From the NCBI RefSeq assembly GCF_036021035.1, contig NZ_CP107930.1, forward strand, positions 3,224,001 to 3,288,000: a stretch of 64,000 nucleotides of DNA, read 5' to 3'. The position numbers were made by a program, and so were the translations under genes. The DNA comes from Kineococcus sp. NBC_00420. Lineage in GTDB: Bacteria > Actinomycetota > Actinomycetes > Actinomycetales > Kineococcaceae. Positions 2,094 through 59,202 of the stretch are shown here, piece by piece. Within the stretch, counting starts at the first letter, position 1. Each line of letters opens with the position of its first letter. The notes below the pieces were generated by a model, which was not told where the DNA came from, did no database searches, and was given only the letters and a program-made list of their open reading frames with translations.

Positions 2094-2096
2094 GCG

Positions 2097-44249: not shown

Positions 44250-44852
44250 CTACGTCGGGCCCGGCTCACCCGCCTCCGGATCCCCGTCCCCGTTCCCGTC
44301 CGCCAGCAGGCTCCGGGCCCGGTCGAGGTCCTGCGGCACGTCGACGTCCAGCGCCTCCCGCCCGCTGACCGCGACCTCCCCGACCCGGCCGCGGAACAGT
44401 TCCCGCAACGGCTGGCCCGCGATCGCCGGCAACCCGTCGAGGACCCGCTGGGCGCCGGTGCGCCGGTGCGCGGAGAGCAGCGGCTGACGCCGGCCGTCCT
44501 CGTCGACCCCGACGACGGCGTCCAGGTCCGGGTCCGCGGCGAGGGCGGCGAGGAGACGGGGCACGGCGCTCGCGGCGAAGGGCTGGTCCCCGCCCAGCAG
44601 CACCAGCACGGGCGCGGTGCTCGCGGCGAGGCCCGCGGCGAACCCGGCGAGCGGACCTCCCCCGGTCGGGCGCTCCAGAACCCCGCCCGGTCCGACGATG
44701 ACCACGTCGTGACCGGCCAACTCGCGCAGCAGGTGCTGCAGGACCGTCCCGGGACCCAGGGGTGCGGCGAGCTTGTCCGCCCCCGGTCCCGTGCGGGCGG
44801 CCCAGCGGGTGCTCCCACCGCCCGCCACGACCACGACGACGACACCCTGCAC
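44250..44852 (-). CDS. MobA-like nucleotidyltransferase
   Basis: A 200-residue protein. The GTG at 44852 has AGGAGG at the right distance; an earlier GTG at 44870 has none. The MobA/GlmU-type nucleotide-binding loop reads VVVVAGGGSTRWAART then GADKLAAPLG, and LVLLGGDQPF carries the metal-binding Asp. The family transfers NMP to molybdopterin or sugar phosphates. No other molybdenum-cofactor gene is nearby, so MobA activity is probable rather than certain. Confidence 0.78.
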   Translation of the reverse strand: MQGVVVVVVAGGGSTRWAARTGPGADKLAAPLGPGTVLQHLLRELAGHDVVIVGPGGVLERPTGGGPLAGFAAGLAASTAPVLVLLGGDQPFAASAVPRLLAALAADPDLDAVVGVDEDGRRQPLLSAHRRTGAQRVLDGLPAIAGQPLRELFRGRVGEVAVSGREALDVDVPQDLDRARSLLADGNGDGDPEAGEPGPT

Positions 44853-44885
44853 CGGACCTCCTGGTGGCACGTTCGAGCGGAAGGG

Positions 44886-44913
44886 TCAAGCAACCACGCC
44901 GAGCTGCCGATGA
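44886..44913 (+). promoter_or_regulatory. FliA/WhiG-type promoter upstream of the conservon
   Basis: TCAA (44886-44889), 16-nt spacer, GCCGATGA (44906-44913). The FliA/WhiG consensus is TAAA-N15/16-GCCGATAA. It is 123 bp before the kinase ATG. One of four such elements at the heads of the signalling operons. Confidence 0.65.
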
Positions 44914-45036
44914 GCCGAACGAGGGTTGTCGGGCCCGTGGAGTTCACCTCGTGGGTCCACGTCCCGATCACCACTGAGTCTGCTCGGCCAACGGTGGGCA
45001 GTTTCGCCCGCCCACCATCGCGTACGGAAGGTTGAC

Positions 45037-48000
45037 ATGCTGCGGAACCTGAGCATCCGAGCCAAGCTCGCGGTCCTCCTGGTGGTACCTCTCGTGTTGC
45101 TGCTCGTCGCCGTCGTCGCGACGGCAGCCCAGAACGTGACGTCCACGACGGAACGCCGCCACCTGGCCGCCTACGCGAAGTCGGCGCAGACGATCAACGG
45201 CTTCTTCACCGCCCTGCAGACGGAGCGACGGAGCACGCTGGAGTACCTGGCCGCGCCGGCCGACGACCTCAAGGCGCAGGTCGCCACCGACCGCGCCGCC
45301 ACCGACGCCGCCACCGCCGGGGTGTCCCGGGCCATCCAGGACAGCGGCCTGGACCTGACCGCCGGGTCCAGCGCCGTGGTCTACGCCAGCGTGCAGAAGG
45401 CCCTCGCGGAGACCCTCCCGCAGACCCGCGCCGCCGTCGACAACGGCACCACCACCCCGCTCGCCGCGCTGAACAGCTACAGCGCCGTCGCCTCCGCCGC
45501 CACCGACCTCACCGTCACCGTCGCCGAGCAGGCCCAGGACCGCGACCTGGCCGACGACATCGCCGCGTTCGGGTACCTCCTCAAGCGCGTCGACGCGCTG
45601 TCGGTCGAGCAGTCCGCCGGTGACCTCATCGTCCAGGGCGACACCAACGTCGCGCTGGACGTCCTGCGCGGCAACGCCATCGAACAGGGCAACTACTTCG
45701 AGGCGCAGGCCCGCTACCGACTGCACGCCGACGGTGCGGCGGCCCTCGACGCCACCCTGAACAGCAGCCAGGTCACCCAGTCGCTGGCGTTCCTGAACCA
45801 GGACCGCAACATCTTCGCCGCTGCTACCGGCACCCCCTCCCTGCCCGAGAAGGGCTGGGAGGAGACCTCCAGCGAGGTCATCACCGCCTACCGCGCCGCC
45901 ACCAACGAGATCGCGACCACCGTCGCCGACCGCGCCGACGCCGCGTCGACCCGCGCCCTCACCGGCACGGTGGTCCTGCTGATCGGCGCCCTGCTCGTCT
46001 TCGCCGCCGTCGCCCTCTTCGGCCTGCGCGTCGCCCGCGACATCGGCCGCCGCCTGCGCGCCCTGTCCGACGCGGCCATCACGGTCCGCGACGAACTGCC
46101 CCGCATGGTCGAGCGCATGCAGACCCCGGGCGAGGGTCCCGGCGTGGAGTTCACCCCGCTGGAGGTCACGAGCACCGACGAGATCGGTGACGTCGCCCAC
46201 GTCATCAACGACCTCAACGAGACCACCTTCCGCATCGCCGGGGAGCAGGCCGCGCTGCGCGCCTCGATCGCCGAGATGTTCGTCAACGTCGCCCGTCGCG
46301 ACCAGACGCTGCTCGCCCGCCAGCTGGCCTTCCTGGACCAGCTGGAGCGCACCGAGGAGAACCCCGACACCCTCGAGGACCTCTTCACCCTCGACCACCT
46401 CGCGACCCGGATGCGGCGCAACGCCGAGTCCCTGCTCGTCCTCGCCGGCATCAACACCGGGCGTCGCCTGCGCCGTCCGCTGCCGCTGTCGGACGTCGTC
46501 CGCACCGCGGCCGGCGAGATCGAGCACTACGACCGCGTGGACCTCGCCCTGCAGGTCGACCCGCCGGTCGTCGGTCACCTCGCGCTGTCGGCCTCGCACA
46601 TGATCGCCGAGCTGCTCGAGAACGCGACGAACTTCTCCGACCCCGGCACCCGCGTCGTCGTCGGCACCGCCGAGACCGACCGCGGCGTCGAGATCACGAT
46701 CAAGGACAGCGGCCTCGGCATGAACGCCGAGGAGGTCGAGACCGCCCACCAGCGCATCTCCGGTGGTCGCGCCTCGGAGTTCGTCGGGGCCCAGCGCCTC
46801 GGGTTCTACGTCGTCGGTCGCCTCGCCGGCCGCCTGGACGTCGAGGTCGAGTTCGTGACCTCCGAGGGCAACGGCACCACCGTCACCCTCGTCCTGCCCG
46901 CGGCGCTCTTCACCCCGGGCTCGGTCAAGGCCGGGGAGCCGGAGCTCGCGGCCCTCGACAGCGGCCTCCCCTCGCTCGAGGGTGGCGTCTCGGCCCTGCC
47001 CGACGGCGGTGCCTCGGCCCTGCCGGAGGCCCCGTCCGCGCTCCCCGCGGGACCGGGTGGTCTGCCCACCCGCACCCCGGCCGCACCCACCGGTGGCCCG
47101 AACACGATCGTCAGCAACCCGCTGGCGGCCGAGGGCCTGGGCGACGCGCTGTCCGCGACGCTGCAGAAGTCCGCGGCCGAGGCGGCCTCGAGCTCCGAGG
47201 TCAACGCCTCCGCGCCCACGTCGAAGGTCGAGGGCCGGCAGCTGCCGACCCGCCGCCGCACCGCTCAGGCGCAGGCCAAGGTAGAGGCGTCACCCGCCCC
47301 CGTCGCTCCCACCACCCCCGTCGCCCCCACCGTCCCGGTGGTGGCGCCGGAGGAGGACTGGAAGCCGGTCACCGCGTCGGCCCCCACCACCTCGGCGATG
47401 CCGAAGCGTGAACGCAAGGCCGAGGCCCCCACGGCTCTGGCTGCGGCGCAGGACATCCTGCCCACCGCAGGCAAGAAGGCCCGCAAGGTCCGCGAGACCG
47501 TGGCCCCGCCGAAGACCGCCGCCGAGGCGTTCTGGACCTCCCGCAAGCGCAGCGAGGCGACGACCGCCGAGGCGTCCGCACTGGACGCCCTCGAGGCCGA
47601 CCGCGCCGCGCAGCAGGCCGAGGAGGCCCCGCACGTCGAGGCCCCCGTCGCTGCGGTCGTCGAGGCGCCGGTCGTCGAGACCCCCGTCGCTGCCGTGGTC
47701 GAGACCCCGGTGGTCGTCGAGGCCCCCGTGCTCGAGACCCCGGTGGTCGTCGAGTCCCCGGTGGTCGAGTCCCCGGTGGTCGAGGCCCCGGTGGTCGAGA
47801 CCCCGGTGGTCGTCGAGGCCCCGGTGGTCGAGACCCCGGTGGTCGAGGCTCCCGTCGCTGCGGTCGTCGAGGCGCCCGTCGTCGAGACCCCCGTGGCCCC
47901 CGTGGCCGCGGCCCCGGTCGCGATCCCCGCGCAGACCCGCACGGTCGGGGAGGCCCTCCGCCAGCGCAGCGCGCTGGCCGCCGACGCCCTCACCGCCCTC

Positions 48001-48243
48001 ACCGACGGGCAGAACTTCACCCCCTCCCGGGGCAGCGGTTCCGCCCCGCTGGTCCGCCGTCAGGCCGGGGCCACCGCGGCCGCGGCCAAGCCGGTCCCGG
48101 CCCGCACCTCCGCGGCCAACCGCCAGCGCCGTGCCCCCGCCGACGTCCGCTCGATGCTCTCCGGCTTCCAGGCCGGCGTGTCCCGCGGCCGCACCGAGGG
48201 CGACACCCCCACCACCGAGAGCGGTGGCGATGGTGACGCCTGA
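45037..48243 (+). CDS. cvnA: Conservon sensor kinase with nitrate-sensor-like ectodomain (CvnA)
   Basis: A 1068-residue membrane kinase from the ATG at 45037 (GGAAGG site). TM1 at ~9-30; an extracellular helical domain (~40-300) of the nitrate/nitrite-sensing type (AYAKSAQTINGFFTALQTERRSTLEYL); TM2 at ~305-330; HAMP; a dimerisation helix without an obvious phospho-His (LDHLATRMRRNAESLLVL); an ATPase domain (MIAELLENATNFSDPG, IKDSGLGMNAEE). From ~640 on it is a long disordered tail rich in Ala, Pro, Val and Glu. This is the CvnA member of a Streptomyces-type conservon, followed by its three partners. Confidence 0.9.
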   Translation: MLRNLSIRAKLAVLLVVPLVLLLVAVVATAAQNVTSTTERRHLAAYAKSAQTINGFFTALQTERRSTLEYLAAPADDLKAQVATDRAATDAATAGVSRAIQDSGLDLTAGSSAVVYASVQKALAETLPQTRAAVDNGTTTPLAALNSYSAVASAATDLTVTVAEQAQDRDLADDIAAFGYLLKRVDALSVEQSAGDLIVQGDTNVALDVLRGNAIEQGNYFEAQARYRLHADGAAALDATLNSSQVTQSLAFLNQDRNIFAAATGTPSLPEKGWEETSSEVITAYRAATNEIATTVADRADAASTRALTGTVVLLIGALLVFAAVALFGLRVARDIGRRLRALSDAAITVRDELPRMVERMQTPGEGPGVEFTPLEVTSTDEIGDVAHVINDLNETTFRIAGEQAALRASIAEMFVNVARRDQTLLARQLAFLDQLERTEENPDTLEDLFTLDHLATRMRRNAESLLVLAGINTGRRLRRPLPLSDVVRTAAGEIEHYDRVDLALQVDPPVVGHLALSASHMIAELLENATNFSDPGTRVVVGTAETDRGVEITIKDSGLGMNAEEVETAHQRISGGRASEFVGAQRLGFYVVGRLAGRLDVEVEFVTSEGNGTTVTLVLPAALFTPGSVKAGEPELAALDSGLPSLEGGVSALPDGGASALPEAPSALPAGPGGLPTRTPAAPTGGPNTIVSNPLAAEGLGDALSATLQKSAAEAASSSEVNASAPTSKVEGRQLPTRRRTAQAQAKVEASPAPVAPTTPVAPTVPVVAPEEDWKPVTASAPTTSAMPKRERKAEAPTALAAAQDILPTAGKKARKVRETVAPPKTAAEAFWTSRKRSEATTAEASALDALEADRAAQQAEEAPHVEAPVAAVVEAPVVETPVAAVVETPVVVEAPVLETPVVVESPVVESPVVEAPVVETPVVVEAPVVETPVVEAPVAAVVEAPVVETPVAPVAAAPVAIPAQTRTVGEALRQRSALAADALTALTDGQNFTPSRGSGSAPLVRRQAGATAAAAKPVPARTSAANRQRRAPADVRSMLSGFQAGVSRGRTEGDTPTTESGGDGDA
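47632..47910 (+). repeat. Val/Glu/Pro-rich tandem repeat in CvnA tail
   Basis: Residues ~866-958 are built from near-identical 12-15 bp units coding VEAPV, VETPV, VVEAPV and VESPV in irregular order, the DNA repeating GAGGCCCCGGTGGTC-like units. Such arrays change length easily by slippage and would alter the tail length without breaking the frame. Confidence 0.85.
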
Positions 48244-48366
48244 CCCGCCCCCCCGGACCTCCCGGGCCCCACGCTCCCGGACCCCACGGTCCCGCGGAGA
48301 ACACCTCCCGCTCCACCACGACCAGCAGTCGACCCGACAGAACTGCGAAAGAAGAGGAATCCCACT

Positions 48367-48813
48367 GTGACCGTGCTCAGCTCCGAGGCCGCCGACTTCA
48401 GCTGGCTCCTCGACAACTTCGTCAAGAGCGTCCCCGGTGTCGCCCACACCGTCGTCGTCTCCGCCGACGGCCTGCTGATGGCGATGTCGGACAAGCTCGA
48501 CCGCGAGTCCGGCGACACCCTCGCCGCGATCGTCTCGGGCGTCTCGAGCCTGGCTCGCGGCGCCGCCCACCAGCTGCAGTCCGGGGAGGTCCGTCAGGCC
48601 ATCATCGAGATGGACGACTCGTTCTTCTTCCTGGTCAACATCTCCGACGGTTCCGTCCTGGCCGTCTCCGCGGAGGCCGGCTGCGACGTCGGGCTCATCG
48701 GCTACGAGATGGCCATGCTGGTCCAGCGCGCCGAGACCGTCCTGACCCCGCAGCTGGTGTCGGAGATGCGGGCGAACCTGCCCACCTCCGCGCCGGTCGC
48801 CTCCCGGTGGTGA
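48367..48813 (+). CDS. cvnB: Roadblock/LC7-domain protein (CvnB)
   Basis: A 148-residue protein from the GTG at 48367. One Roadblock/LC7 domain covers nearly all of it: FSWLLDNFVKSVPGVAHTVV-type start, then VSADGLLMAMSDKLDRESGD and GSVLAVSAEAGCDVGLIGYEM. Roadblock proteins bind and regulate small GTPases such as MglA, here the GTPase two genes downstream. It is the second gene of the conservon, 123 bp after the kinase. Confidence 0.92.
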   Translation: MTVLSSEAADFSWLLDNFVKSVPGVAHTVVVSADGLLMAMSDKLDRESGDTLAAIVSGVSSLARGAAHQLQSGEVRQAIIEMDDSFFFLVNISDGSVLAVSAEAGCDVGLIGYEMAMLVQRAETVLTPQLVSEMRANLPTSAPVASRW

Positions 48814-48819
48814 CGCGAC

Positions 48820-49215
48820 GTGACAGCACCTGGTAGCGCGGACCTCTGGTCCGACGACGACGACCAGGACCTCGAGGAGTTCACCGTCCGCCCGTACACC
48901 GTCACCGGTGGCCGGACCCGACCGAGCAACGCCGACCTCCCGGTCGAGGCGCTCGTGGAGGCCCTCGCCGAACCGGAGGTCGGGATGACGCCGGAACGGC
49001 GCAAGATCCTCGAACTCACCAAGAAGTCCTACCTGTCGATCGCGGAACTGTCCGCACACGTCCACCTGCCGGTCGGAGTCGTCCGTGTCGTGGTGAGCGA
49101 CCTGTCCCAAGCCGGGAAGGTCCGCATCCACGGCCTCACGATGACCTCCGCCCCCCAACCCGCGACAACCATCAGCGTCCTGGAGAGTGTTCTCAATGGC
49201 ATTTCCTCGCTCTGA
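48820..49215 (+). CDS. cvnC: DUF742 protein (CvnC)
   Basis: A 131-residue protein from a GTG 6 bp after cvnB. The N-terminal 35 residues are acidic (LWSDDDDQDLEEF) and are followed by VRPYTVTGGRTRP, the DUF742 signature. The C-terminal part is a winged-helix-like segment (KSYLSIAELSAHVHLPVGVVR, VVVSDLSQAGKVRIHG). CvnC proteins are conservon members of unclear biochemical role. Its last 20 bp overlap the GTPase gene. Confidence 0.92.
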   Translation: MTAPGSADLWSDDDDQDLEEFTVRPYTVTGGRTRPSNADLPVEALVEALAEPEVGMTPERRKILELTKKSYLSIAELSAHVHLPVGVVRVVVSDLSQAGKVRIHGLTMTSAPQPATTISVLESVLNGISSL

Positions 49216-49819
49216 CGTGAGCCCCGCCGGAGCCGGAGCGCCCGCGGGAACCGCACCTCAGGCCCCGCCCACCGTCGTCAAGATCGTCGTGGCCGGCGGG
49301 TTCGCCGTCGGCAAGACGACCTTCATCGGCTCGATCTCCGACATCGAGCCGCTGCGCACCGAAGCCGCCATGACCGAGCACTCGGTCGGCATCGACGACG
49401 CGGGTCTCAACTCCGACCGCAAGACCTCCACCACCGTCGCCATGGACTTCGGCCGCATCGCGCTGCCGGGAAACCTCTGGCTCTACCTGTTCGGCACCCC
49501 GGGCCAGGACCGCTTCCTCTTCATGTGGGACGACCTGGTCAAGGGCGCCATCGGCGCCGTCGTGCTCGTCGACACCGACCGTCTCGACCAGTGCTTCCCG
49601 GCCGTCGACTACTTCGAGTCCCGCGGGATCCCGTTCGTCGTCGCCGTCAACTGCTTCGACGGTGTCGCCCAGCACGACCTCGACTCGGTCCGGGAAGCGC
49701 TCGGCGTCCCCGAGCACGTCCCGCTCGTCTACACCGACGCCCGCTCCAAGGCCGCGACCAAGCACAGCCTCATCACGCTCGTGCAGACGGCGCTCGCGCG
49801 CCTCAACGCCGGGGCCTGA
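49196..49819 (+). CDS. cvnD: Conservon GTPase (CvnD, MglA-related)
   Basis: A 207-residue small GTPase from the ATG at 49196, inside the end of cvnC and with a GGAGAG site. The P-loop reads [16 protein letters not shown], switch II is [16 protein letters not shown], and the G4 region is the variant NCFD instead of NKxD, as is usual in CvnD. It should be regulated by the Roadblock partner. It is the last conservon gene and is followed by a hairpin. Confidence 0.93.
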
Positions 49820-49833
49820 CCCACCCGCCCGCG

Positions 49834-49861
49834 ACGCCGGTCCCCCTCGGGGGGCCGGCGT
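49834..49861 (+). terminator. Terminator after conservon
   Basis: Arms 49834-49846 and 49849-49861 pair with one mismatch around a very short loop. The flank GTTCTGCGTTCCCGG is the same as after the cheW terminator (54555-54589). Confidence 0.75.
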
Positions 49862-49900
49862 TCTGCGTTCCCGGGTCCCCGGCCCCGGACCCGGCCCCGC

Positions 49901-49929
49901 TCAAGGAACCCCGGCCCGGCTGCCGATGG
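49901..49929 (+). promoter_or_regulatory. FliA/WhiG-type promoter upstream of MCP
   Basis: TCAA (49901-49904), 17-nt spacer, GCCGATGG (49922-49929), 54 bp before the MCP start. One nt longer than the other three elements. Confidence 0.6.
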
Positions 49930-49983
49930 CGGGAACGAGGGGTCCCCGCCACCGAGGACCCCGCCCCAGCTGAGGAGTCGTCC

Positions 49984-51576
49984 GTGACCCGCACCATCCG
50001 CAACCTCGGCGTCGGGCCGCGCATCGCCGCGGGCTTCGCCGTGATGACCGTCCTGCTCGCGGTCCTCGCCGCCGTCGGCCTGGCCCAGCTCTCCGCCGCC
50101 CAGCACCGGCTCGAGGTCATGAGCGGGCAGAACGTCGCCGCGCAGCAGAAGCTCGCCGAGGTCCGCACCATCTACAACCGGATGTCGAAGGACCTCCTGG
50201 CCGTCGCGCTGACCCCCTCCGAGGACACCCAGTCGGCCGTCGTCACCGACCAGACCGACGTGAGCGACGCCTGGGACGCGTTCAAGGCCGCCGGCCCCGG
50301 CGTCCCCGCCGACCAGCTCAGCGCCGTCGACTCCGCGCTGGCGGACTACCTCTCCGGCGCTCGCGTCCTGCTGGGCATCGCCCTGACGGGTGACCAGGCC
50401 GCCTTCGTCGCGACCCGCGGCGACGACAGCATCGCGGTCGCCGCCGGCGGCATCGGCCACGGCAAGACCAACGACGCCCTGAAGGTCGTCCAGGCGACCA
50501 TCACCGAGAACGCCGTCGTGAGCACCCGCGAGGGCACCGTCGCCTACGGTCACGCCCGGTGGGCGCTGCTCGGCACGGCGCTCGCCGCGATCGCGGCCGC
50601 CGTCGCCCTCACCGTCGTCACCACCCGCAGCATCTCGGTGCCGCTGAAGCGCACCCGTGAGGTCGCCACCGCGCTCAGCGAGGGACGGCTCGACGTCCGC
50701 GTCGGGACCTACAGCCGCGACGAGGTCGGCGCGACCGCGCAGGCCCTCGACTCGGCCCTCGACACCCTCGCGGTCACGGTGCGTCGCATCCGGGGCGGGG
50801 TCGACGGGTTGCAGAACTCCTCCGGGCGCCTCGGTGAGGTGTCCCGGCAGCTGACGGCCGGCGCGCACGACTCCGCGAGCCAGGCCGACGTCGTCTCGCT
50901 CGCCGCCGCCGACATCTCCGCCAGCATCGGGACCGTCGCCGGCGCCAGCGAGGAGATGACCGCGGCCATCCGCGAGATCGCCTCCTCCACCGCCGACGCC
51001 TCCACCGTGGCCGCCGACGCCGTCCGTTCGGCCGGCGAGGCCAGCGAGACCATCGAGCGGCTGTCCTCCTCCAGCCAGGAGATCGGCGACGTCGTCAAGC
51101 TCATCACCTCCATCGCCGAGCAGACGAACCTGCTGGCCCTCAACGCGACCATCGAGGCCGCCCGGGCGGGGGAGATGGGCAAGGGTTTCGCCGTCGTCGC
51201 GGGCGAGGTCAAGGAGCTCGCGCAGCAGACGGCCCGCGCCACCGAGCAGATCACCCAGCGCGTCCTCGCCACCCAGGGCGACGCGGCCGCCGCGTCGGCG
51301 GCCATCGCCCAGATCGGCCTGGTCATCGGCAACATCGACAGCCTGCAGACGACCATCGCCGCGGCCGTCGAGGAGCAGTCCGCCACGACCGCGGAGATGG
51401 TCCGCAACGTCACCGAGGTCTCGACGGGGTCGCAGGAGATCTCCACGAACATGCAGGGGATCGCCGCGGCGTCCTCGCGCACCCGCGACGCCGCCGAGAG
51501 CACCCGGGACTCCGCCGACGAGGTCTCCCGGGTCGCGAGCGACCTCCAGGACGCCGTGGCGGGCTTCCGGCTGTGA
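49984..51576 (+). CDS. mcp: Methyl-accepting chemotaxis protein
   Basis: A 530-residue chemoreceptor from the GTG at 49984. TM1 ~13-37, an extracellular four-helix-bundle-like domain of ~150 residues, TM2 ~192-213, HAMP (~215-265), then the signalling domain with the conserved tip [34 protein letters not shown]. It ends VAGFRL, without a CheR-binding pentapeptide. It senses an outside ligand and controls CheA, encoded next. The ligand is unknown. Confidence 0.93.
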
Positions 51577-51590
51577 CGTCCGGACGCCCA

Positions 51591-51607
51591 CGGCGACCCC
51601 GTCGCCG
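51591..51607 (+). terminator. Short hairpin after MCP
   Basis: CGGCGAC and GTCGCCG pair around CCC, followed by GCGGGGTTTC. It directly precedes the cheA promoter, so it may separate the two transcription units. Confidence 0.5.
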
Positions 51608-51613
51608 CGGGGT

Positions 51614-51641
51614 TTCAGCTCCGGCACTCGAATGCCGATGA
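51614..51641 (+). promoter_or_regulatory. FliA/WhiG-type promoter upstream of cheA
   Basis: TTCA (51614-51617), 16-nt spacer, GCCGATGA (51634-51641), 80 bp before the cheA start. Confidence 0.6.
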
Positions 51642-51721
51642 GCAGACAGAGCACGTGAACGAGCAAGTGACACACCGTGGTCCCGCCCGGGATCACACCG
51701 CCGCGAGAAGTGGGAGTCCAC

Positions 51722-54097
51722 GTGGACGACATGGACGAGATCGTCCAGGAGTTCCTCGTCGAGAGCTACGAGAACCTGGACCAGCTGGACTCCGACCTCG
51801 TGGCGCTGGAGCAGCAGCCAGGCTCCCGCGAGCTGCTCGCGAGCGTCTTCCGCACCATCCACACGATCAAGGGCACCTCCGGGTTCCTGGCGTTCTCTCG
51901 CCTGGAGGCCGTGGCCCACGTCGGTGAGAACCTGCTGGCCCGTCTGCGTGACGGCCAGATCGTCATGACGCCGGTCACCACCGACGTCCTGCTGCGGATG
52001 GTCGACACCATCCGTGAACTGCTCTCGAAGATCGAGGCGAACCACACCGAGGACGGTGTCGAGGTCGCCGCCGTCGTCGCCGCCATCCGCGCGGTGCTCG
52101 ACGGTGAGGAACCCGTCCTGCCGGCCGCCGACGGCGCCGGGGTCGAGGTCGTCTCCGCACCGGTTGCCGCACCGGTTGCCGCACCGGTCGCCGCGCCCGC
52201 TCCCGAACCCGAGCCCGTCGTCGAGGCGCCCGTCGCCGAGACCCCCGTCGAGGTCGCGCCGGAACCCGAACCCACCCCGGAACCCACCCCGGAACCCGTC
52301 GCCGAGGTCCCCGCTCCCGCCCCCGCCGCCGCGGCCCCCGCCGCGGCCCCGGCCGGTGGGGGCGGTGCTCCCCCCGAGAAGGCCTCCGCGGCCGAGTCGA
52401 CCATCCGCGTCGACGTGGAACTCCTCGAGTCCCTCGTCCGCCAGGCCGGTGAGCTCGTCCTCGCCCGCAACCAGATCCTGCAGCGGGCTGGAGCCCTGCG
52501 CGACGAGGACCTCACCCGCGCCTGCCACCGCCTGAACCTCGTCGCGAGCGAGATGCAGGAATCGGTCATGCGCACCCGCATGCAGGCCATCGACCACCTG
52601 TGGTCGAAGCTTCCCCGCGTCGTCCGCGACCTCGGGAACATGCTCAACCGCAAGATCAAGCTGGAGATGGAGGGCGGCGACACCGAACTCGACCGCACCC
52701 TCCTCGAGGCCGTCAAGGACCCCTTGACCCACATCGTCCGCAACGCGGTCGACCACGGCATCGAGTCCCCGGACGTCCGCCTCGCCGCCGGCAAGAACGA
52801 GGTCGGAACTCTCAAGCTGCGCGCCGCCCACGAGGGCGGCCAGGTCGTCGTCGAGATCCGCGACGACGGCAAGGGCATCGACCCGGTCATCATCGGGAAC
52901 AAGGCCGTCGAGAAGGGCCTGGTGTCCGCGGCCAAGCTCGAGACGCTGACCCCCAACGACATCCTGCAGTTCCTCTTCCTGCCCGGGTTCTCCACCGCGG
53001 CGAAGGTCACGAACGTCTCCGGCCGTGGGGTCGGGATGGACGTCGTGAAGACGAACATCGAGCGCATCGGCGGTTCCGTCGACGTCGAGTCCGTCACCGG
53101 GCAGGGTACCGTCTGGCGTCTGCGGATCCCGTTGACGCTGGCGATCGTCCCGGCCCTGACCGTCGAGTGCGCCGGTCAGCGCTACGCCATGCCGCAGGTG
53201 AACCTGCTCGAACTCGTGAGCCTGGACACCGAGAAGATGGGCAAGGCGATCGAGGACGTCGGTGGCGCGAAGGTGTACCGCCTGCGCGGTGCGCTGCTGC
53301 CGCTGATCCGCCTCGAGGAGGCGCTGGAACTCAAGCGCCCCACCGACGTGGAACTCCCGACGAACCTCGTCATCGCCGTCCTCGAGTGCGACGGGCGCCG
53401 CTTCGGCCTGCTCGTCGACCGGGTCCTGGACACCGAGGAGATCGTCGTCAAGCCGCTCTCCGGGGCGTTGAAGGCCATCGGCGCCTACGCCGGCGCCACC
53501 ATCCTCGGTGACGGTCGCGTCTCGCTGATCCTCGACGTGCAGTCGCTGGCGCGCCGCACGATGCGTTCCGACGGCATCGACCACGCCAACGACCAGGCCG
53601 CCGCGGAACAGGCCGCGAGCAGCGACGGGCAGCGCCTGCTGGTCGTCGGTCTCGGCGGGAACCGCCGCGTCGCGATCCCGCTGGACGTCGTCACCCGCCT
53701 CGAGGAGTTCAAGACCGACTCCATCGAACGGGTCGGGCGCCGCGAGGTCGTCCGCTACCGCGGCGAGATCCTGCCGCTGGTCCGCCTGGCGAACCACCTC
53801 GGCGGCGGCTCACGCTCGTCGTACTCGGGGGGCGAGGCCGCCTCGGTCCCGGGTGTCGTCTACTCGGCCCGCGGTCGCTCGGTCGCGATCGTCGTCGACG
53901 AGATCGTCGACATCGTCTCCGGCCAGGACGCGCACAGCGACATCGACGACGCCGGTCTGGTCGGTTCCGCGGTCATCCGCGACCGCGTGACCGAACTCCT
54001 CGACGTGCGGTCCGCGATCCTCGCGGCCGACCCGAACTTCTTCTCCGAGCAGGCTCAGAACGAGCTCGCCGCAGCATCCACGCGACTGGGGGTCTGA
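51722..54097 (+). CDS. cheA: Chemotaxis histidine kinase CheA with tandem CheW domains
   Basis: A 791-residue kinase; the GTG at 51722 follows GTGGGAG and gives a normal HPt start. HPt domain 1-~110 with phospho-His H47 (FRTIHTIKGTSGF). An Ala/Pro/Glu-rich linker (~125-225) takes the place of a recognisable CheY-binding P2 domain. Dimerisation ~235-295; ATPase ~296-470 (THIVRNAVDHGIE, RDDGKGID, GRGVGMDVVKTNIERIGG). Then a CheW-like domain (~475-610) and a second one (~635-770, LLVVGLGGNRRVAIPLDVV). It phosphorylates CheY and CheB. cheW follows 1 bp later. Confidence 0.94.
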   Translation: MDDMDEIVQEFLVESYENLDQLDSDLVALEQQPGSRELLASVFRTIHTIKGTSGFLAFSRLEAVAHVGENLLARLRDGQIVMTPVTTDVLLRMVDTIRELLSKIEANHTEDGVEVAAVVAAIRAVLDGEEPVLPAADGAGVEVVSAPVAAPVAAPVAAPAPEPEPVVEAPVAETPVEVAPEPEPTPEPTPEPVAEVPAPAPAAAAPAAAPAGGGGAPPEKASAAESTIRVDVELLESLVRQAGELVLARNQILQRAGALRDEDLTRACHRLNLVASEMQESVMRTRMQAIDHLWSKLPRVVRDLGNMLNRKIKLEMEGGDTELDRTLLEAVKDPLTHIVRNAVDHGIESPDVRLAAGKNEVGTLKLRAAHEGGQVVVEIRDDGKGIDPVIIGNKAVEKGLVSAAKLETLTPNDILQFLFLPGFSTAAKVTNVSGRGVGMDVVKTNIERIGGSVDVESVTGQGTVWRLRIPLTLAIVPALTVECAGQRYAMPQVNLLELVSLDTEKMGKAIEDVGGAKVYRLRGALLPLIRLEEALELKRPTDVELPTNLVIAVLECDGRRFGLLVDRVLDTEEIVVKPLSGALKAIGAYAGATILGDGRVSLILDVQSLARRTMRSDGIDHANDQAAAEQAASSDGQRLLVVGLGGNRRVAIPLDVVTRLEEFKTDSIERVGRREVVRYRGEILPLVRLANHLGGGSRSSYSGGEAASVPGVVYSARGRSVAIVVDEIVDIVSGQDAHSDIDDAGLVGSAVIRDRVTELLDVRSAILAADPNFFSEQAQNELAAASTRLGV
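52157..52192 (+). repeat. 12-bp tandem repeat (3 copies) in CheA linker
   Basis: GCACCGGTTGCC at 52157-52168 and 52169-52180, with a third copy having one change at 52181-52192. It codes the APVA repeats at the start of the linker. Confidence 0.9.
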
Positions 54098-54098
54098 C

Positions 54099-54545
54099 GT
54101 GTCCACGCAGTACGCCACGTTCCACCTGGCCGGACACCTCTTCGGTGTCGAGGTCCGGCGAGTGCAGGAAGTGCTCACCGAGCAGCCGCGCACACCCGCG
54201 CCGCTGGCTCCGCGGGCCGTCGCGGGTCTCATCAACCTGCGCGGTCAGGTCGTCACCGCGCTCGACCTGCGCCGCCGGCTCAACATGCCCGACCGCGAGG
54301 AGGGGCGCGTCGCGATGAACGTCGTCGTCCGCGCCGGCGACGAGGTCTGGAGCCTGCTGGTCGACTCCATCGGCGGCGTCATCGAGGTCACCGACTCGAC
54401 CTTCGAGCCGCCGCCGGACACGCTGTCCGGCCCGATCCGCGAACTCATCCGCGGTGCCTACAAGCTCGACGACGCGCTGCTGCTCGTCCTCGACGTGGAC
54501 AAGGCCCTCGAGATCGAGGGCATCGGCGCGGTCGTCGCGGCCTGA
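54099..54545 (+). CDS. cheW: Chemotaxis adaptor CheW
   Basis: A 148-residue single-domain CheW from the GTG 1 bp after cheA. Features: YATFHLAGHLFGVEVRRVQEVL, VAGLINLRGQVVTALDLRRRL, and WSLLVDSIGGVIEVTDSTFEPPP. It bridges receptors and CheA at the cytoplasmic membrane. Followed by a 15-bp-stem terminator. Confidence 0.95.
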   Translation: MSTQYATFHLAGHLFGVEVRRVQEVLTEQPRTPAPLAPRAVAGLINLRGQVVTALDLRRRLNMPDREEGRVAMNVVVRAGDEVWSLLVDSIGGVIEVTDSTFEPPPDTLSGPIRELIRGAYKLDDALLLVLDVDKALEIEGIGAVVAA

Positions 54546-54554
54546 CCCGACGGT

Positions 54555-54589
54555 GAACGGGGTGGGACCTTCCGGGTCCCACCCCGTTC
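54555..54589 (+). terminator. Terminator after cheA-cheW
   Basis: Arms 54555-54569 and 54575-54589 pair perfectly (15 bp) with loop TTCCG, followed by TCTGCGTTCCCGG as after the conservon. Confidence 0.85.
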
Positions 54590-54615
54590 TGCGTTCCCGG
54601 ACCCCGCGAGCGGGT

Positions 54616-55386
54616 TCAGCGGGGGCGGCGGTAGGCGTCGAGTTCCGCGCCCGAGAGCCGGGGGACCTCGGACGGTCGTTCCTCGACCGGTGGTTCGGGG
54701 CGGGGTTCCGCAGGTGGCTCCGCGACCGGTTCAGGGGCGGGTTCCGCGGCGGGTTCGGCGGCGGGTTCCGCGGCGACTCGGGCGGCGCCCGGGGCCTGCC
54801 ACAGCACGAGGGCCGCCACGGCCGGCACGACCGTCATCACCACCAGCAACGCCATGACCGGCGCGATCTCGGGGAAGTCCCCGGTCGAGGGCAGCAGGTA
54901 GCTCAGCTGCAGGTTGCCGTAGGCGCTGCTGCGGGGTTCGTCGGCGAGTTCGACGAGCATCACCAGGCACACCAGGCTCTCGAGCGCGCTCAGCCCGGCG
55001 GCGCCCGCGACGACGCGGGCACCCCACCGCGGCGGGACGAGCCACTCCGGCCGCCCGGCCACGACGACGGCGGCCAGCCCCAGCACCACCGGCAGGGCCG
55101 CGATCAGGACGTCCGGCACCGGGACGCTCGCCCACAGCAACCGGAACCGGACGGTGAACGTGAAGTCGAGGCGCGCGCGGACGTCGGCCTCCGAGACGTA
55201 GGCCCCGAAGTAGCTCGCGTCGGCGCTCCCCGTCAGGAACCGCCGGGACACCTCGGCCAGGACCACCGGCGGGAGGACCGCGACGAGGACGAGCAGCCAG
55301 GAGACCCAGCCCAGGGGCAGCCGCCCCGCCTCGTCCTCCTCGTCCCCCACCGGCCCCTCGTGCTCCCCGTCCCGCTCGTGCGTCAC
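54616..55386 (-). CDS. Four-TM membrane protein (paralogue of 55383-56216)
   Basis: A 256-residue protein from a GTG at 55386 overlapping the stop of its upstream neighbour. Short acidic N-terminus, hydrophobic segments (WVSWLLVLVAVLPPVVLAEV, VLIAALPVVLGLAAVVVAG, a third at ~125-150, and VMALLVVMTVVPAVAALVLW), then a Pro/Ala/Glu-rich cytoplasmic tail ending LDAYRRPR. It is clearly homologous to the preceding gene along its length. No known family. It lies between cheW and unrelated genes on the opposite strand. Confidence 0.78.
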   Translation of the reverse strand: MTHERDGEHEGPVGDEEDEAGRLPLGWVSWLLVLVAVLPPVVLAEVSRRFLTGSADASYFGAYVSEADVRARLDFTFTVRFRLLWASVPVPDVLIAALPVVLGLAAVVVAGRPEWLVPPRWGARVVAGAAGLSALESLVCLVMLVELADEPRSSAYGNLQLSYLLPSTGDFPEIAPVMALLVVMTVVPAVAALVLWQAPGAARVAAEPAAEPAAEPAPEPVAEPPAEPRPEPPVEERPSEVPRLSGAELDAYRRPR

Positions 55387-56216
55387 GCGCCCTCCCCGGA
55401 GACCGGCCGGCGGTAGGCGTCGAGGTCGTCGGCGGAGGGTTTCGGGACGTCGGCCACCCCGGCCTGCGGCGCGGGCCCGGGTTCGGGTGCCGGTTCGGGT
55501 TCGGGTTCGGGTTCGACCACGGCGGGGGCGGCGGGTTCCGCGGGGGCGGCGGGAACCGGCCCCACCGCCGGGTCCACGGCCCGCCACAGCACGAGGGCGG
55601 CGAGCGCCGGCAGGGCCGTCGTCACGACCAGCAGCGCGAGGACACCGAGGAGTTCCGGGAACTCCCCCGTCGAGGGGATGTAGTAGCTGATCTGGGAACC
55701 GCCGAAGGACTCCCGTTCGGGTTCCCCGGCGCGCGTGACCAGGCTGACCAGGCTGACCAGGCTCTCGAGCGCCGTGAGGGCCGCGGCCCCCGCGCCCACC
55801 CGGGCCGCCCAGCGCCGCGGGACCAGCCAGTCCGGCCGGCCCGCCACGACGAGAGCGGCCACGACGAGCACGCCGCACAGGGCCGCGAGCAGCACCTGCG
55901 GGACGGGGACCGTCATCCAGAGCAGACCGAACCGGTTGGACCAGCCGAGGTCGATCCCGTCGCCGTCGCCGGGGGCGGCGCGGGTCCCGACGTAGGCGGC
56001 GTCCGCCCCACCCCCCAGGAACCGGCGGCCGAGGACGGCCAGCGCGAGCGGTGGGACCGCGGAGACGGCGACGACCAGCCAGGACGCCCACCGGCCGGGA
56101 GCCGACTCCCGCTCTCCGCCCCGCTCGGCCTCCCCGCCGGACTCCCCGTCGAACTCGTCGGGTCCCTCGTCGGCGAGCGGGTGGGTCCCCGGGTGCTCGC
56201 TGTGCTGGTGGTCCAC
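55383..56216 (-). CDS. Four-TM membrane protein (paralogue of 54616-55386)
   Basis: A 277-residue protein from the ATG at 56216. Acidic ~40-residue N-terminus, four hydrophobic segments in the same order as the downstream paralogue (WASWLVVAVSAVPPLALAVL; VLLAALCGVLVVAALVVAGRP; ~140-165; VLALLVVTTALPALAALVLW), a conserved YYIPSTGEFPEL (YLLPSTGDFPEI in the paralogue), and a Glu/Pro-rich tail ending LDAYRRPVSGEGA. A tandem duplication is evident. Function unknown. Confidence 0.8.
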   Translation of the reverse strand: MDHQHSEHPGTHPLADEGPDEFDGESGGEAERGGERESAPGRWASWLVVAVSAVPPLALAVLGRRFLGGGADAAYVGTRAAPGDGDGIDLGWSNRFGLLWMTVPVPQVLLAALCGVLVVAALVVAGRPDWLVPRRWAARVGAGAAALTALESLVSLVSLVTRAGEPERESFGGSQISYYIPSTGEFPELLGVLALLVVTTALPALAALVLWRAVDPAVGPVPAAPAEPAAPAVVEPEPEPEPAPEPGPAPQAGVADVPKPSADDLDAYRRPVSGEGA

Positions 56217-56372
56217 GACCTGACGTTACGGCGGTCGTGCTCCCACGTCCCCCGGACGGCGCAACGCCGTCGCGGTGGGTGCGCCGCACGGGGGGTGCGG
56301 ACCTCCGGCGTGCCGCCGGACGGCTGACGACGTGTGGCCCCCTCGTTCACCCGGTGTCAGGGTGGGACCACT

Positions 56373-56388
56373 CCGCCGGACCCGGCGG
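56373..56388. promoter_or_regulatory. Inverted repeat upstream of the orphan gene at 56418
   Basis: CCGCCGG-AC-CCGGCGG (56373-56388) flanked by an outer pair GGTGTC (56353-56358) and GACACC (56392-56397). The nested symmetry just before the GTG could be an operator or a 5' hairpin. Confidence 0.4.
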
Positions 56389-56417
56389 TGAGACACCACG
56401 CACCGGAGGCGACGACC

Positions 56418-57344
56418 GTGCACTACTCCCTGGTGAGTTCTCCCGTCCTGGGCTTCGACCTCGTGCGACTGCCCGCGGGCGACTCCGCGGCGGAGGTCCT
56501 GCTGCGTGCTCTCGACTCCGGCCCCCGCGAGATCGAGGTCCTGGCCGAGCGTCACGACCCGGCGACCCGGGCCTCGGCCTGGGACGCGGTCCGCACCGCC
56601 ACCGACGCCGTCCCGCAGCTCGGCGACGTGCTGCACCAGGTCGCCAACGGCCTCGCTCACGAGGACTTCGCCGACGAGGTGTCCGGCGCCCGGGTCGAGG
56701 CCGGCATCGTCCGGGTCCTGCAGACCAGCACCATCGCCGACGCCGACGCCCTCGTCCGCCTGGTCCACCACGACGTCTTCGACTGGACCTGGTCGGCTCC
56801 GCTGGAGGGCGGGCCCCGGCTGCGCACCGAGGACGCGGGTCGCGCCGCCGACGTGCTCGCCGACGCCGCCGTCTCCGCCTACCTCGGCGACCGGCTGCCC
56901 GACCACGCGCGACGGGTCCTCGCGCACCCCTACCTGCAGGCCGCTCGCGACCTCGCCCCGCTGCCCGAGCACCCGACCGGTCTCGGGGAGGCGCAGGCCG
57001 GGGTGACCCGCGTCCTCGACACCCTGCGTCGCCTCGACGGCACCGACCGCGCCTGCCTGCGGGCGGTGGGGGAGACCAGCCGCCCGAGCGCGGGCGAGTG
57101 GGCCGGCGCCGTCCACGACGCCTCCTGGGCCGTGCACCTCTCCGACCGCGTCCGCACCGCCGCGGTGGCCCAGCTGCTCGCGGTCCGCGCCTTCCGGGCC
57201 GGTGGGCTCGACGCCGCCGACGGCGCGAACGGTCTGTGGAACGTCGTCAGCGGGGTCGTGCACGCCGAGGTCGTCGCCGACCTGCTGTCCTCCGACGCCC
57301 GTGCGGTCCTGATGCGTCCGTGGGAGGCGGCCTTCGGCGCCTGA
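56418..57344 (+). CDS. Hypothetical helical protein
   Basis: A 308-residue soluble protein from the GTG at 56418 (CGGAGGCGAC site). After a short beta start (HYSLVSSPVLGFDLVRLP) it looks mostly alpha-helical with many Ala/Asp/Arg-rich helices, such as ADALVRLVHHDVFDWTW and SDRVRTAAVAQLLAVRAF. No catalytic motif, membrane segment or signal is visible and I recognise no family. It lies alone between the membrane-protein pair and the YcnI pair and has its own terminator. Confidence 0.75.
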   Translation: MHYSLVSSPVLGFDLVRLPAGDSAAEVLLRALDSGPREIEVLAERHDPATRASAWDAVRTATDAVPQLGDVLHQVANGLAHEDFADEVSGARVEAGIVRVLQTSTIADADALVRLVHHDVFDWTWSAPLEGGPRLRTEDAGRAADVLADAAVSAYLGDRLPDHARRVLAHPYLQAARDLAPLPEHPTGLGEAQAGVTRVLDTLRRLDGTDRACLRAVGETSRPSAGEWAGAVHDASWAVHLSDRVRTAAVAQLLAVRAFRAGGLDAADGANGLWNVVSGVVHAEVVADLLSSDARAVLMRPWEAAFGA

Positions 57345-57362
57345 GCCACCAGGACCACCCGG

Positions 57363-57401
57363 GAGCGCCCGGTCACCGGCCCGGTCGGTGACCGGGCGCT
57401 C
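57363..57401 (+). terminator. Terminator after orphan gene
   Basis: Arms 57363-57378 and 57386-57401 pair perfectly over 16 bp with a 7-nt loop, 18 bp after the stop. Confidence 0.85.
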
Positions 57402-57433
57402 TCGCGTCCGGCGCGCGGCGGTACGGTGCTGAC

Positions 57434-58057
57434 GTGCCCAGCCCGCTGACGTCCGGCCCCGCCGGGCCGTCGCGGGGGTCGCTGCGGGTGCTGCGCGCCG
57501 GGGCCGTCGCCGCGAGCGTCGTGGGGCTCGCCGCGGGCGCCCACCTCGCCGGTGGGGGAGAGCTCCCCGGCCCGGCGCTGCTGCTCGCGGTCGTCGTCGT
57601 CCTCGCCGCGGTGACCCTGCTGCTGGCCGGTCGCCGCTTCACGTGGCCGGTCCTCACCGCTCTGCTGGGCACCGGGCAGGTCGTCCTGCACGAGGTCTTC
57701 GAGCAGTGCTCCGGGCCGGCCGCCACGGTCGTGGGCCACGGACACCACCAGACCCTCGCCCCGGCGCTCGGAGCGGGCGCCGCGACCGCCGCGGGATCCC
57801 CTGCGATGACGCTCGCCCACGTCGTGGCCACGGTCGTCGCGACGGTCCTGCTGCTGCACGGCGAGGCGCTGGTGTGGTCGTTGTGGGCGTGGTTGCGCCC
57901 GCTGGTCCGGGTGCTGCTCGCCCTGCTGGGCCCGGCCGTGGGAGTCCTGCCGCGGTTCCCGAGGACGACGGTGCCGCGACCGCGTTCGGTGCTCGCCCGT
58001 CGGGTTCGTCGACGTGGGCCACCGGGAGCGACCGCTCTCGCCACCCCATCGTCCTGA
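57434..58057 (+). CDS. Multi-TM membrane protein paired with YcnI
   Basis: A 207-residue membrane protein from a GTG. Hydrophobic segments at ~22-40, ~47-65, ~70-85, ~125-145 and ~150-165, with a His-rich outer loop (VVGHGHHQTLAP) and further conserved His residues (VVLHEVFEQC, AHVVATVVATVLLLHGEAL). The C-terminus is basic and cytoplasmic. Proteins of this kind often accompany YcnI in actinobacteria, so copper handling is a reasonable guess. The YcnI gene follows 20 bp later. Confidence 0.75.
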   Translation: MPSPLTSGPAGPSRGSLRVLRAGAVAASVVGLAAGAHLAGGGELPGPALLLAVVVVLAAVTLLLAGRRFTWPVLTALLGTGQVVLHEVFEQCSGPAATVVGHGHHQTLAPALGAGAATAAGSPAMTLAHVVATVVATVLLLHGEALVWSLWAWLRPLVRVLLALLGPAVGVLPRFPRTTVPRPRSVLARRVRRRGPPGATALATPSS

Positions 58058-58077
58058 CGAAACCCCGAGGATCCACC

Positions 58078-58797
58078 GTGAAGAGCTCCACCCTGCCCAC
58101 CCGCGCCCTCGCCGTCTCCGTGACCGCCTGCGCCGCAGTGCTCCTGGGCGCCTCCAGCGCCTCTGCCCACGTGCACGCGACCCCCGACACGACCGCCGCC
58201 GACGGCTACAGCGTCGTGACGTTCCGGGTTCCGAACGAGTCCGACACCGCCGCCACGACGTCGGTCGCGGTGTCCCTGCCGACCGACCACCCCTTCAGCT
58301 ACGTGGCCGTGCGGCCCCTGCCGGGGTGGACCGCCGTCGTCACCGAGGGCGCCCTGCCCGCCCCCGTCGAGCACGACGGGACGACCGTGACCAAGGCCGC
58401 CCTGAAGATCACCTGGACCGCCGCGGCCGGATCGCCCGGGATCGCCGTCGGGCAGTTCGAGGAGTTCGAGGCGAACGTCGGCCCGCTGCCCGACGCCGGC
58501 ACGCAGGTCGTGCTGCCCACCGTCCAGACCTACGCCGACGGTGAGGTGTCGAACTGGACCGAGGTGGCCGCCGCGGGCGCGGCCGAACCCGAGAACCCCG
58601 CGCCCGGGTTCACCACCACCGCGGCCACCGACGACGAGCACGGCGGCGCGAGCACCGCGCACGAGGCGGCGGGCAACGGTGCGACGACGTCGACCACCGG
58701 CGGGTCGGACCCGCTGGCCCGTGGCCTCGCGGGGGGCGGACTCGTCCTCGGCCTCGCCGCGCTCGTGATCGTCCTGCTGCGTCGCCAGCGGTCCTGA
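58078..58797 (+). CDS. ycnI: YcnI-like copper-binding protein (DUF1775)
   Basis: A 239-residue protein from a GTG with CGAGG upstream. A signal peptide ends in SSASA-HVHATP, placing the copper-binding His at the mature N-terminus as in YcnI. The DUF1775 domain (to ~165) has VTFRVPNESDTAATTSVAVSLP, PGWTAVV and a conserved WTAAAGSPGIAVGQFEEF. A Thr/Gly-rich linker and a C-terminal membrane helix (GLAGGGLVLGLAALVIVLL, RRQRS) anchor it. Role in extracytoplasmic copper handling is known for the family. Confidence 0.92.
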   Translation: MKSSTLPTRALAVSVTACAAVLLGASSASAHVHATPDTTAADGYSVVTFRVPNESDTAATTSVAVSLPTDHPFSYVAVRPLPGWTAVVTEGALPAPVEHDGTTVTKAALKITWTAAAGSPGIAVGQFEEFEANVGPLPDAGTQVVLPTVQTYADGEVSNWTEVAAAGAAEPENPAPGFTTTAATDDEHGGASTAHEAAGNGATTSTTGGSDPLARGLAGGGLVLGLAALVIVLLRRQRS

Positions 58798-58803
58798 GCC
58801 CGG

Positions 58804-58823
58804 CCCGTCCCGGGAGGGACGGG
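58804..58823 (+). terminator. Terminator after ycnI
   Basis: CCCGTCCC (58804-58811) and GGGACGGG (58816-58823) pair around GGGA, 6 bp after the ycnI stop. Confidence 0.7.
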
Positions 58824-59099
58824 ACCTGAGCGCTCCACCCGTGATCGCGGGTGGTGCGACCGAGCCGGTCCACCACCCGCGGTCCGCGGCGCGACCCGGT
58901 GCCCGTCGGCGACCTGTGGGTCGAGCGTCGTCCGACCCTGCACTCCCTGGAACCGCAGCTCGCGCTCGCCGACCGCGACGACGGGAACGGTCTCGGCGAC
59001 CTCCGCTACCCCGTCGAGCGACGCGGCACCACTCGACGCGTGACGAATGGGGACGCACAGTAGCTGTGTACACGGAGTGACGACACGTGCGCTTCGCCG

Positions 59100-59127
59100 T
59101 TCAGGGTTGGCCGCCGAGCGCCGATGG
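59100..59127 (+). promoter_or_regulatory. FliA/WhiG-type promoter upstream of cheB
   Basis: TTCA (59100-59103), 16-nt spacer, GCCGATGG (59120-59127), 75 bp before the cheB start. Same elements and spacing as before cheA. Confidence 0.6.
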
Positions 59128-59202
59128 ACAGGTAGTCGTCCGCCCCCGGACGGTGTTCACGGTGCGGTCCTCCGCACCGACGGCAGGAAGGCAAGGTGCG
59201 AC

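Follow-up and report, generated by a model that had tools for sequence, protein, structure and literature searches.

The stretch of DNA analyzed here, referred to as the window, comprises 64,000 nucleotides of the chromosome of Kineococcus sp. NBC_00420 (positions 3224001-3288000 of NZ_CP107930.1; the genome is a single contig of 5,434,400 bases, 5.43 Mb). It contains a signalling block of four units on the plus strand: a conservon (cvnABCD), a gene for a methyl-accepting chemotaxis protein (MCP), cheA-cheW, and a group of genes headed by cheB. Each unit is preceded by a copy of a short element. On the basis of the sequence comparisons below, we put the probability that these four sites are promoters of the FliA (sigma-28) class with a variant -35, belonging to one regulon that includes the conservon, at roughly 0.87. 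All four sites had been reported in a preliminary description of this DNA, and each is found where it was reported to be:

44886-44913, plus strand: P1, predicted FliA-type promoter of the conservon, TCAA-N16-GCCGATGA (= TCAAG-N15-GCCGATGA), matrix score 16.7
49901-49929, plus strand: predicted FliA-type promoter of the MCP gene, TCAA-N17-GCCGATGG (= TCAAG-N16-GCCGATGG), score 19.2
51614-51641, plus strand: predicted FliA-type promoter of cheA-cheW, TTCA-N16-GCCGATGA (= TTCAG-N15-GCCGATGA), score 19.4
59100-59127, plus strand: predicted FliA-type promoter of the cheB operon, TTCA-N16-GCCGATGG (= TTCAG-N15-GCCGATGG), score 19.4

The genes of the four units are the following:

45037-48243, plus strand: cvnA, with the Pfam domains NIT (sensor) and HATPase_c (histidine-kinase-like ATPase), and a long C-terminal tail with LPTR at residues 676 and 736
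48367-48813, plus strand: cvnB, Roadblock/LC7 protein (MglB-like; Pfam)
48820-49215, plus strand: cvnC, DUF742 protein (Pfam), one of two DUF742 matches in the genome
49217-49819, plus strand: cvnD, small Ras-like GTPase (MglA-like), Pfam ATP_bind_1 at 96.2 bits (cutoff 27) in an open reading frame scanned with 30 extra 5' bases, P-loop GGFAVGKTT
49984-51576, plus strand: MCP gene (Pfam MCPsignal, HAMP)
51722-54097, plus strand: cheA (Pfam Hpt, H-kinase_dim, HATPase_c, CheW)
54099-54545, plus strand: cheW (Pfam CheW)
59203-60462, plus strand: cheB (Pfam CheB_methylest, Response_reg)
60464-61294, plus strand: cheR (Pfam CheR; a longer in-frame open reading frame was scanned)
61291-61674, plus strand: gene for a CheY-like receiver protein (Pfam Response_reg in a longer in-frame open reading frame; the best NCBIfam match, CheY, is below cutoff)
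61671-62180, plus strand: cheX (Pfam CheX)
62185-63078, plus strand: gene for a second receiver-domain protein (Pfam Response_reg)

The cvn genes stand in the order cvnA-B-C-D and encode the domains of a conservon, the CvnC of which we take to be a DUF742 protein, and the C-terminal extension of CvnA carries the LPxR motif twice, in the form LPTR. A terminator scan returned one weak site, within cvnB, so that the four units are told apart by gaps, gene order, and the promoters.

The placement originally claimed for the sites, 50-125 bp before the first gene of each unit, agrees with the called starts: the distance from the end of the site is 124-125 bases for cvnA (start at 45037), 55 for the MCP gene (49984), 81 for cheA (51722), and 76 for cheB (59203). 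Scanning the window with T[T/C/A][A/C]A-N13-18-GCCGAT gave seven matches, of which five had a spacing of 15-17; these were the four sites and one match at 38919, which sits within a called gene (38192-39136). A mismatch-free TCA-N16-18-GCCGAT was found within 180 bases upstream of four of the 61 called genes that had enough upstream sequence to be scored, and these four were exactly cvnA, the MCP gene, cheA, and cheB; two further genes had matches in eight of nine letters. The scoring matrix, which was built from 19 sites, all of them outside the window, gave the four sites scores of 16.7-19.4, while the best other gene of the window reached 11.7.

Across the genome, BTCAR-N15-17-GCCGAT matched 76 times, compared with 15 matches for a reversed control pattern, and TYMAG-N-GCCGATG matched 31 times, compared with 16 for its control. 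Intergenic matches made up 44 of the 76, while the non-coding part of the window is about 6%; this count is approximate, because it depends on gene starts from a codon-usage caller of our own, and genes at either end of a 3-4 kb piece may escape it. For 34 of the 44, a gene start on the same strand lay within 200 bases, and 30 of these were outside the window. Among the 30 genes were six encoding MCPs, four with GGDEF or EAL domains, three flagellar genes (FlbD, flagellin, and FlgN), seven with other Pfam domains (GAF/PAS, a LuxR-type regulator, MASE1, an amidase, Wzz/ParA, a periplasmic binding protein, and a beta-lactamase-like protein), eight without a Pfam domain, and two very short ones that were not scanned. 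The turnover of cyclic di-GMP (c-di-GMP) appears to be part of the regulon. The FliA-type sites before the four GGDEF or EAL genes are located at genome positions 630774-630800, 1493084-1493109, 2795532-2795558, and 3080314-3080340.

The association was also tested starting from the MCP genes. The genome has 33 of them, 32 outside the window, and 18 of the 32 carried at least eight of nine letters of the element within 180 bases upstream (six carried all nine), against a mean of 1.5 and a maximum of 5 in 300 shuffles, two on the antisense strand, and none with the reversed pattern. The check for enrichment upstream of flagellar and chemotaxis genes, which had been proposed along with the four sites, was thus run outside the window and found the element enriched.

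These matches also refine the form of the element. TCAA and TTCA, the -35 sequences originally given, were read correctly, but they belong to a single element that comes as TCAAG or, one base shorter, as TCAG: among the 44 intergenic matches, TCAG-N15-GCCGAT occurs in 16 and TCAAG-N15-GCCGAT in 13. The commonest constant part is AG-N15-GCCGAT, which does not match TAAA, and the refined -35 can be written as [C/T/G]TC-A(1-2)-G, usually 15 and at times 16 bases before GCCGAT. The base following GCCGAT in the same 44 matches is mostly G (30), less often C (9), and rarely A (3) or T (2), and GCCGATA is absent from the window. The flagellar sigma-28 (FliA/WhiG) consensus has TAAA at -35 and GCCGATAA at -10 (PMC8325347). 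The fit to this consensus that had been proposed holds for the -10, GCCGAT at a near-constant spacing, but not for the -35, as TAAA is absent from the four sites, which have TCAAG or TTCAG instead. In 602,396 fetched bases, TAAA-N13-17-GCCGATR matched twice. Flagellar promoters of Actinoplanes missouriensis reportedly have a CTCA-type -35; if so, this promoter variety is already known, which makes it uncertain whether the -35 form is new.

The flagellar cluster on this chromosome has the same element before the flagellin gene (642798-644018, minus strand) and flgN-flgK (646499, plus strand), as well as before a rod-domain gene (617070-617420, minus strand; Pfam) and fliA (644349-645245, minus strand), where the -10 reads GCCGAA and GCCGAG. 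Within another flagellar block (556-572 kb), it precedes flhA, fliQ, and a receiver gene, the former two again with GCCGAA or GCCGAG. The GCCGAA/GCCGAG sites of the rod gene, fliA, flhA, and fliQ (genome 617531-617556, 645256-645282, 562158-562183, and 569172-569197, minus strand) have an unchanged -35. Together with GCCGATG at flagellin and flgN, these variants could mark two promoter tiers.

Other features of the flagellar regions were recorded as well. A GTCACCCG-type / GTCACCCGRTCGGC box lies just 5' of the -35 of fliA (genome 645297, minus strand) and of a divergent gene by the rod operon (617782, plus strand), and GTCACCCGRTCGGC is a possible activator site. The flagellar cluster further encodes a protein of 1466 residues (635665-640065, minus strand) in which ten fibronectin type III stretches were matched; its gene has a weak FliA-like site (score 10.9). 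Two adjacent FliW genes (649372-649782 and 649980-650390) are located downstream of flgK and a second gene with a Flagellin_N match.

Relatives provided a second line of evidence. A scan of a sequence collection put the window close to Kineococcus, with K. vitellinus, K. xinjiangensis, and K. sp. TRM81007 as the top matches bearing a name. Orthologues of cvnA, defined as full-length matches at E 1.2e-96 or better (a full-length, 31%-identical match in genome G025 was excluded), were present in 18 of 29 genomes, counting the present one (G000). FliG was searched for in the same 29 genomes, contigs of metagenome-assembled genomes (MAGs) lying outside this search, and was found in 22; the orthologue occurs in 17 of these 22 and in one of the seven FliG-negative genomes (Fisher p 0.0055, relatedness uncorrected). 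One genome, G003, had no cvnA match, but its assembly consists of 1060 contigs. A homologue of the divergent oxidoreductase gene (TIGR02824) was located upstream of cvnA in all 17 fetched relatives, and the synteny of cvnA spans families.

A site scoring at least 12 with the matrix from the present genome was found before cvnA in 17 of 21 loci of relatives: nine of ten within Kineococcus and its family, and eight of 11 outside it (genomes G015, G020, G021, and G028, and MAG contigs L173, L174, L176, and L177). For L174, L233, and L234, the cvnA start was placed manually, guided by the MLR/MLQ N-terminus. The 21 loci do not include L235-L237 (other conservons), L171, L172, and L180 (which lie on the contigs of L223-L225), L175 (whose contig lacks a start), or L179 and L181-L187, where the match was weak. 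Shuffle p-values for one and the same sequence varied between runs (0.025 and 0.055 for L171 and L223). Among the other genes of the same loci, 22 of 293 reached 12, of which 12 were cheA or cheB. Leaving these two genes aside, ten of 281 did so, including four cvnB or cvnD and one cheW; at a threshold of 16, the counts were 12 of 21 for cvnA versus one of 281. The site of cheA was present in eight of eight and that of cheB in four of four loci scored, while the internal gene cvnB had none in those eight loci, its score never exceeding 6. Even before distant cvnA genes (39-45% identity; L173, L174, L176, and L177), CTCAAG-N15 comes before GCCGAA, GCCGAT, or TCCGAT, and the end of the site is 52-55 bases 5' of the gene. 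Genome G019 offers a single natural control: it has the conservon but lacks FliG, FliA, and WhiG, and its cvnA upstream region scores 2.8. The proposal that the conservon belongs to the motility regulon is supported by the site before cvnA in relatives from other families.

A 22nd locus, L178, carries CTCAAG-N15-GCCGATGG with a score of 20.9, which would bring the count to 18 of 22. This contig is assigned to a Spirochaetaceae MAG, but its cvnA product begins with MLRDAGVRTK, as do those of the actinobacterial contigs L173 and L176; the contig was probably misbinned.

It is this orthologue group, not conservons generally, that carries the site, as the other conservons scored show. No site above 9 was found within 200 bases of cvnA2, the kinase-like gene of a second conservon-like locus of the present genome (3998236), and the more distant conservons of the FliG-positive genomes G025 and G027 (L235-L237) scored 1.4-5.0 at caller-set starts. 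The second locus (3998236-4001870) holds the other DUF742 gene in a conservon-like order, and no NIT match was found in its kinase-like protein. A strong promoter match near it, at 4002925-4002950, is located upstream of a phosphomannomutase-type gene.

As cheA follows cvnD in all seven sufficiently long loci of Kineococcus and its family, the conservon might share the promoter merely through its chemotaxis neighborhood, without a function in motility. We consider this improbable: the site also precedes cvnA where the fetched stretch shows no cheA (G015, G020, G021, L173, L174, L176, and L177, some of these stretches ending near cvnA), and the distribution of the orthologue over FliG-positive and FliG-negative genomes given above speaks against a bystander as well.

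Which site serves cvnA is a separate question, since a second and weaker match, not part of the preliminary description, is located closer to the gene:

44943-44968, plus strand: P2, weaker FliA-like site of the conservon, TTCA-N16-CCCGAT, score 10.9

In an alignment of 11 cvnA upstream regions from the Kineococcus group, CCGA of P2 is invariant (11/11; CCGAA in G004), whereas only six regions retain GCCGATG of P1. P2 can be the stronger match where P1 is missing (G001, G002, and G009). Moreover, the best sites scoring at least 12 in other lineages end 30-79 bases 5' of cvnA, like P2 (68 bases) and unlike P1 (125). It is therefore conceivable, if somewhat doubtful, that P2 is the working promoter of the conservon and P1 is secondary or idle. 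The matrix from the strain's own genome favors P1, at 16.7 versus 10.9, the -10 of P2 is CCCGAT rather than GCCGAT, and its -35 is TACA instead of YTCA in two of the 11 regions. P1, P2, or both may be used.

As to the sigma factor, the preliminary description made its case depend on a FliA/WhiG-type gene in the genome, and both types are present. Six matches were found, of which two stand out. The product of the FliA gene (644349-645245, minus strand), which adjoins the flagellin gene, has Pfam sigma-70 regions 2, 3, and 4, scores 186.1 bits against TIGR02479, just under the cutoff of 189.6, and has as its top structure match the sigma-28 factor (FliA) 1rp3 (E 4e-35). The WhiG gene (970934-971971, minus strand) is over the same cutoff at 283.7 bits and scores 384 bits against a chain of 6pfj, which we take to be Streptomyces WhiG. 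Among the 29 genomes, FliA-type proteins (127-191 bits) occurred in 21 of the 22 FliG-positive and none of the seven FliG-negative ones, on the same contig as FliG in 15 of 21; the exceptions are G023, which lacks one (assembly 89% complete), and G024, where the match is weak (127 bits). WhiG-type proteins (over 240 bits) occurred in 20 genomes, including the FliG-negative G026, and were missing from the FliG-positive G023 (incomplete), G024, and G027.

FliA is more likely than WhiG to read these promoters, judging from these distributions, because it is FliA, not WhiG, that tracks FliG across the 29 genomes. That WhiG reads them instead, or that both share them, seems unlikely to us, even though a clear WhiG orthologue is encoded and, in the sections of PMC8325347 on which we draw, WhiG and the flagellar sigma clade are described as having the same promoter specificity. 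WhiG is also present in every searched genome that has a cvnA site, so that co-occurrence cannot separate the two at cvnA. Besides the tracking of FliG, the position of the FliA gene next to flagellin and the departure of the -35 from TAAA argue for FliA; the presumed -35 helix reads SQMRAEAL in FliA and CQMHTKAV in WhiG, which may be relevant to this difference.

Beyond this co-occurrence of WhiG, several observations weigh against assigning the four sites to one FliA regulon. Matches inside genes account for 32 of the 76 strict matches (12 sense, 20 antisense), for ten of the 44 intergenic matches no gene start lies within 200 bases, and among the 30 start-proximal matches outside the window, 17 precede genes without a motility or c-di-GMP domain. 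When the -10 was relaxed to GCCGA with the long -35 (YTCAAG-N15/16-GCCGA), 43 matches were found versus 32 for the control and most of the contrast was lost, for which reason GCCGAT was retained as the -10. The sites used to train the matrix were picked by eye. Some internal conservon genes reached 12, whether by chance or not (cvnB in L228, at 14.7, and cvnD in L218, L220, and L177), and in G018, which has FliG, FliA, and WhiG, the site before cvnA is missing (score 2.8), while the cvnA upstream regions of G010 (10.8) and G012 (9.2) are marginal. A sigma-70 promoter scan of 44600-59400 found none, which says little because only 0.1 were expected.

Chance matches in GC-rich DNA would fit the 28 copies of GCCGATG counted over both strands of the window and the weak enrichment of the relaxed pattern. 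Such an origin is extremely improbable in view of the shuffle, antisense, reversed-pattern, neighboring-gene, and cross-species controls, and was rejected on these grounds.

If the four sites are indeed FliA-class promoters, the FliA encoded beside flagellin would most likely direct RNA polymerase to them, and cvnABCD, the MCP, CheA-CheW, and the products of the cheB operon would be made together, in the cell state in which flagellin, FlgN-FlgK, many MCPs, and several c-di-GMP enzymes are made. CvnABCD, with its NIT sensor, Roadblock protein, DUF742 protein, and Ras-like GTPase, would then act in the flagellated cell, perhaps adjusting the output of chemotaxis or the site at which the motility machinery is placed. 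In such an arrangement, a NIT-type sensor kinase would feed a Ras-like GTPase and its Roadblock partner, co-made with the chemosensory system. The new part, we infer, is the presence of the conservon, an actinobacterial G-protein system, in the FliA regulon. More tentatively, and with less than even confidence, the distinct, syntenic orthologue group might serve flagellated actinobacterial cells as their G-protein system, being expressed under FliA together with flagellin and chemotaxis proteins, kept along with flagella across families, and placing or switching the motility machinery in a manner resembling MglA/MglB and Frz.

The signal path of conservons is described as poorly understood (PMC13343842, in part). 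If transcription of the conservon is tied to flagellar assembly, it should come with a measurable phenotype, in swimming, chemotaxis, or the number and site of flagella, and would allow a direct test of whether modules of a Ras-like GTPase and a Roadblock protein serve flagellar motility. Kineococcus, a motile genus that is not known to include pathogens, would at the same time gain a testable FliA regulon.

The comparison with known systems draws on portions of the papers cited. Like the FliA/WhiG promoters of PMC8325347, those proposed here have GCCGAT at -10 and a similar spacing, with FliA and WhiG genes in the genome and motility and c-di-GMP genes downstream; unlike them, the -35 is [C/T/G]TC-A(1-2)-G, and GCCGAT is mostly followed by G. 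In the zoospore-forming actinobacterium A. missouriensis, the WhiG-like flagellar sigma factors FliA1-FliA3 drive flagellar genes (PMC13293333, PMC11064477, PMC8325347), and the covered text links no conservon to their regulon, unlike what we propose here. The motility island of Kineococcus radiotolerans likewise has FliA beside fliC, without flgM, and its regulation was not fully discerned (PMC2587704); the part of that paper covered gives no promoter motif and does not contain the word conservon. The roles named for conservons are aerial mycelium formation, specialized metabolism, and DNA gyrase/antibiotic resistance (PMC13343842, PMC4316618), and the word stem flagell is absent from PMC13343842. 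A link between conservons and flagella was likewise not found in the covered parts of PMC4316618 and PMC4255298, which contain both words, as do PMC13015309 and PMC12610561, nor in the titles and abstract openings of the best-ranked open PMC matches, the top 10-20 of 11 to 3,364.

In its makeup, the locus resembles the conservons of these excerpts, sharing the CvnA-D order, the NIT-type CvnA, the Roadblock protein, the Ras-like GTPase, and the LPxR motif (PMC13343842, PMC4316618). Conservons have no response regulator, and the GTPase has been proposed as their output (PMC4316618, in part). According to the same excerpt, the Myxococcus system is not flagellar and conservon GTPases belong to another MglA group, in which respects MglA/MglB with Frz differs from the system described here. 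As in Myxococcus, a Ras-like GTPase and its Roadblock partner are here linked to a chemosensory system (PMC4316618), and this likeness of the conservon to an MglA/MglB-type polarity module invites comparison, by analogy, between the two.

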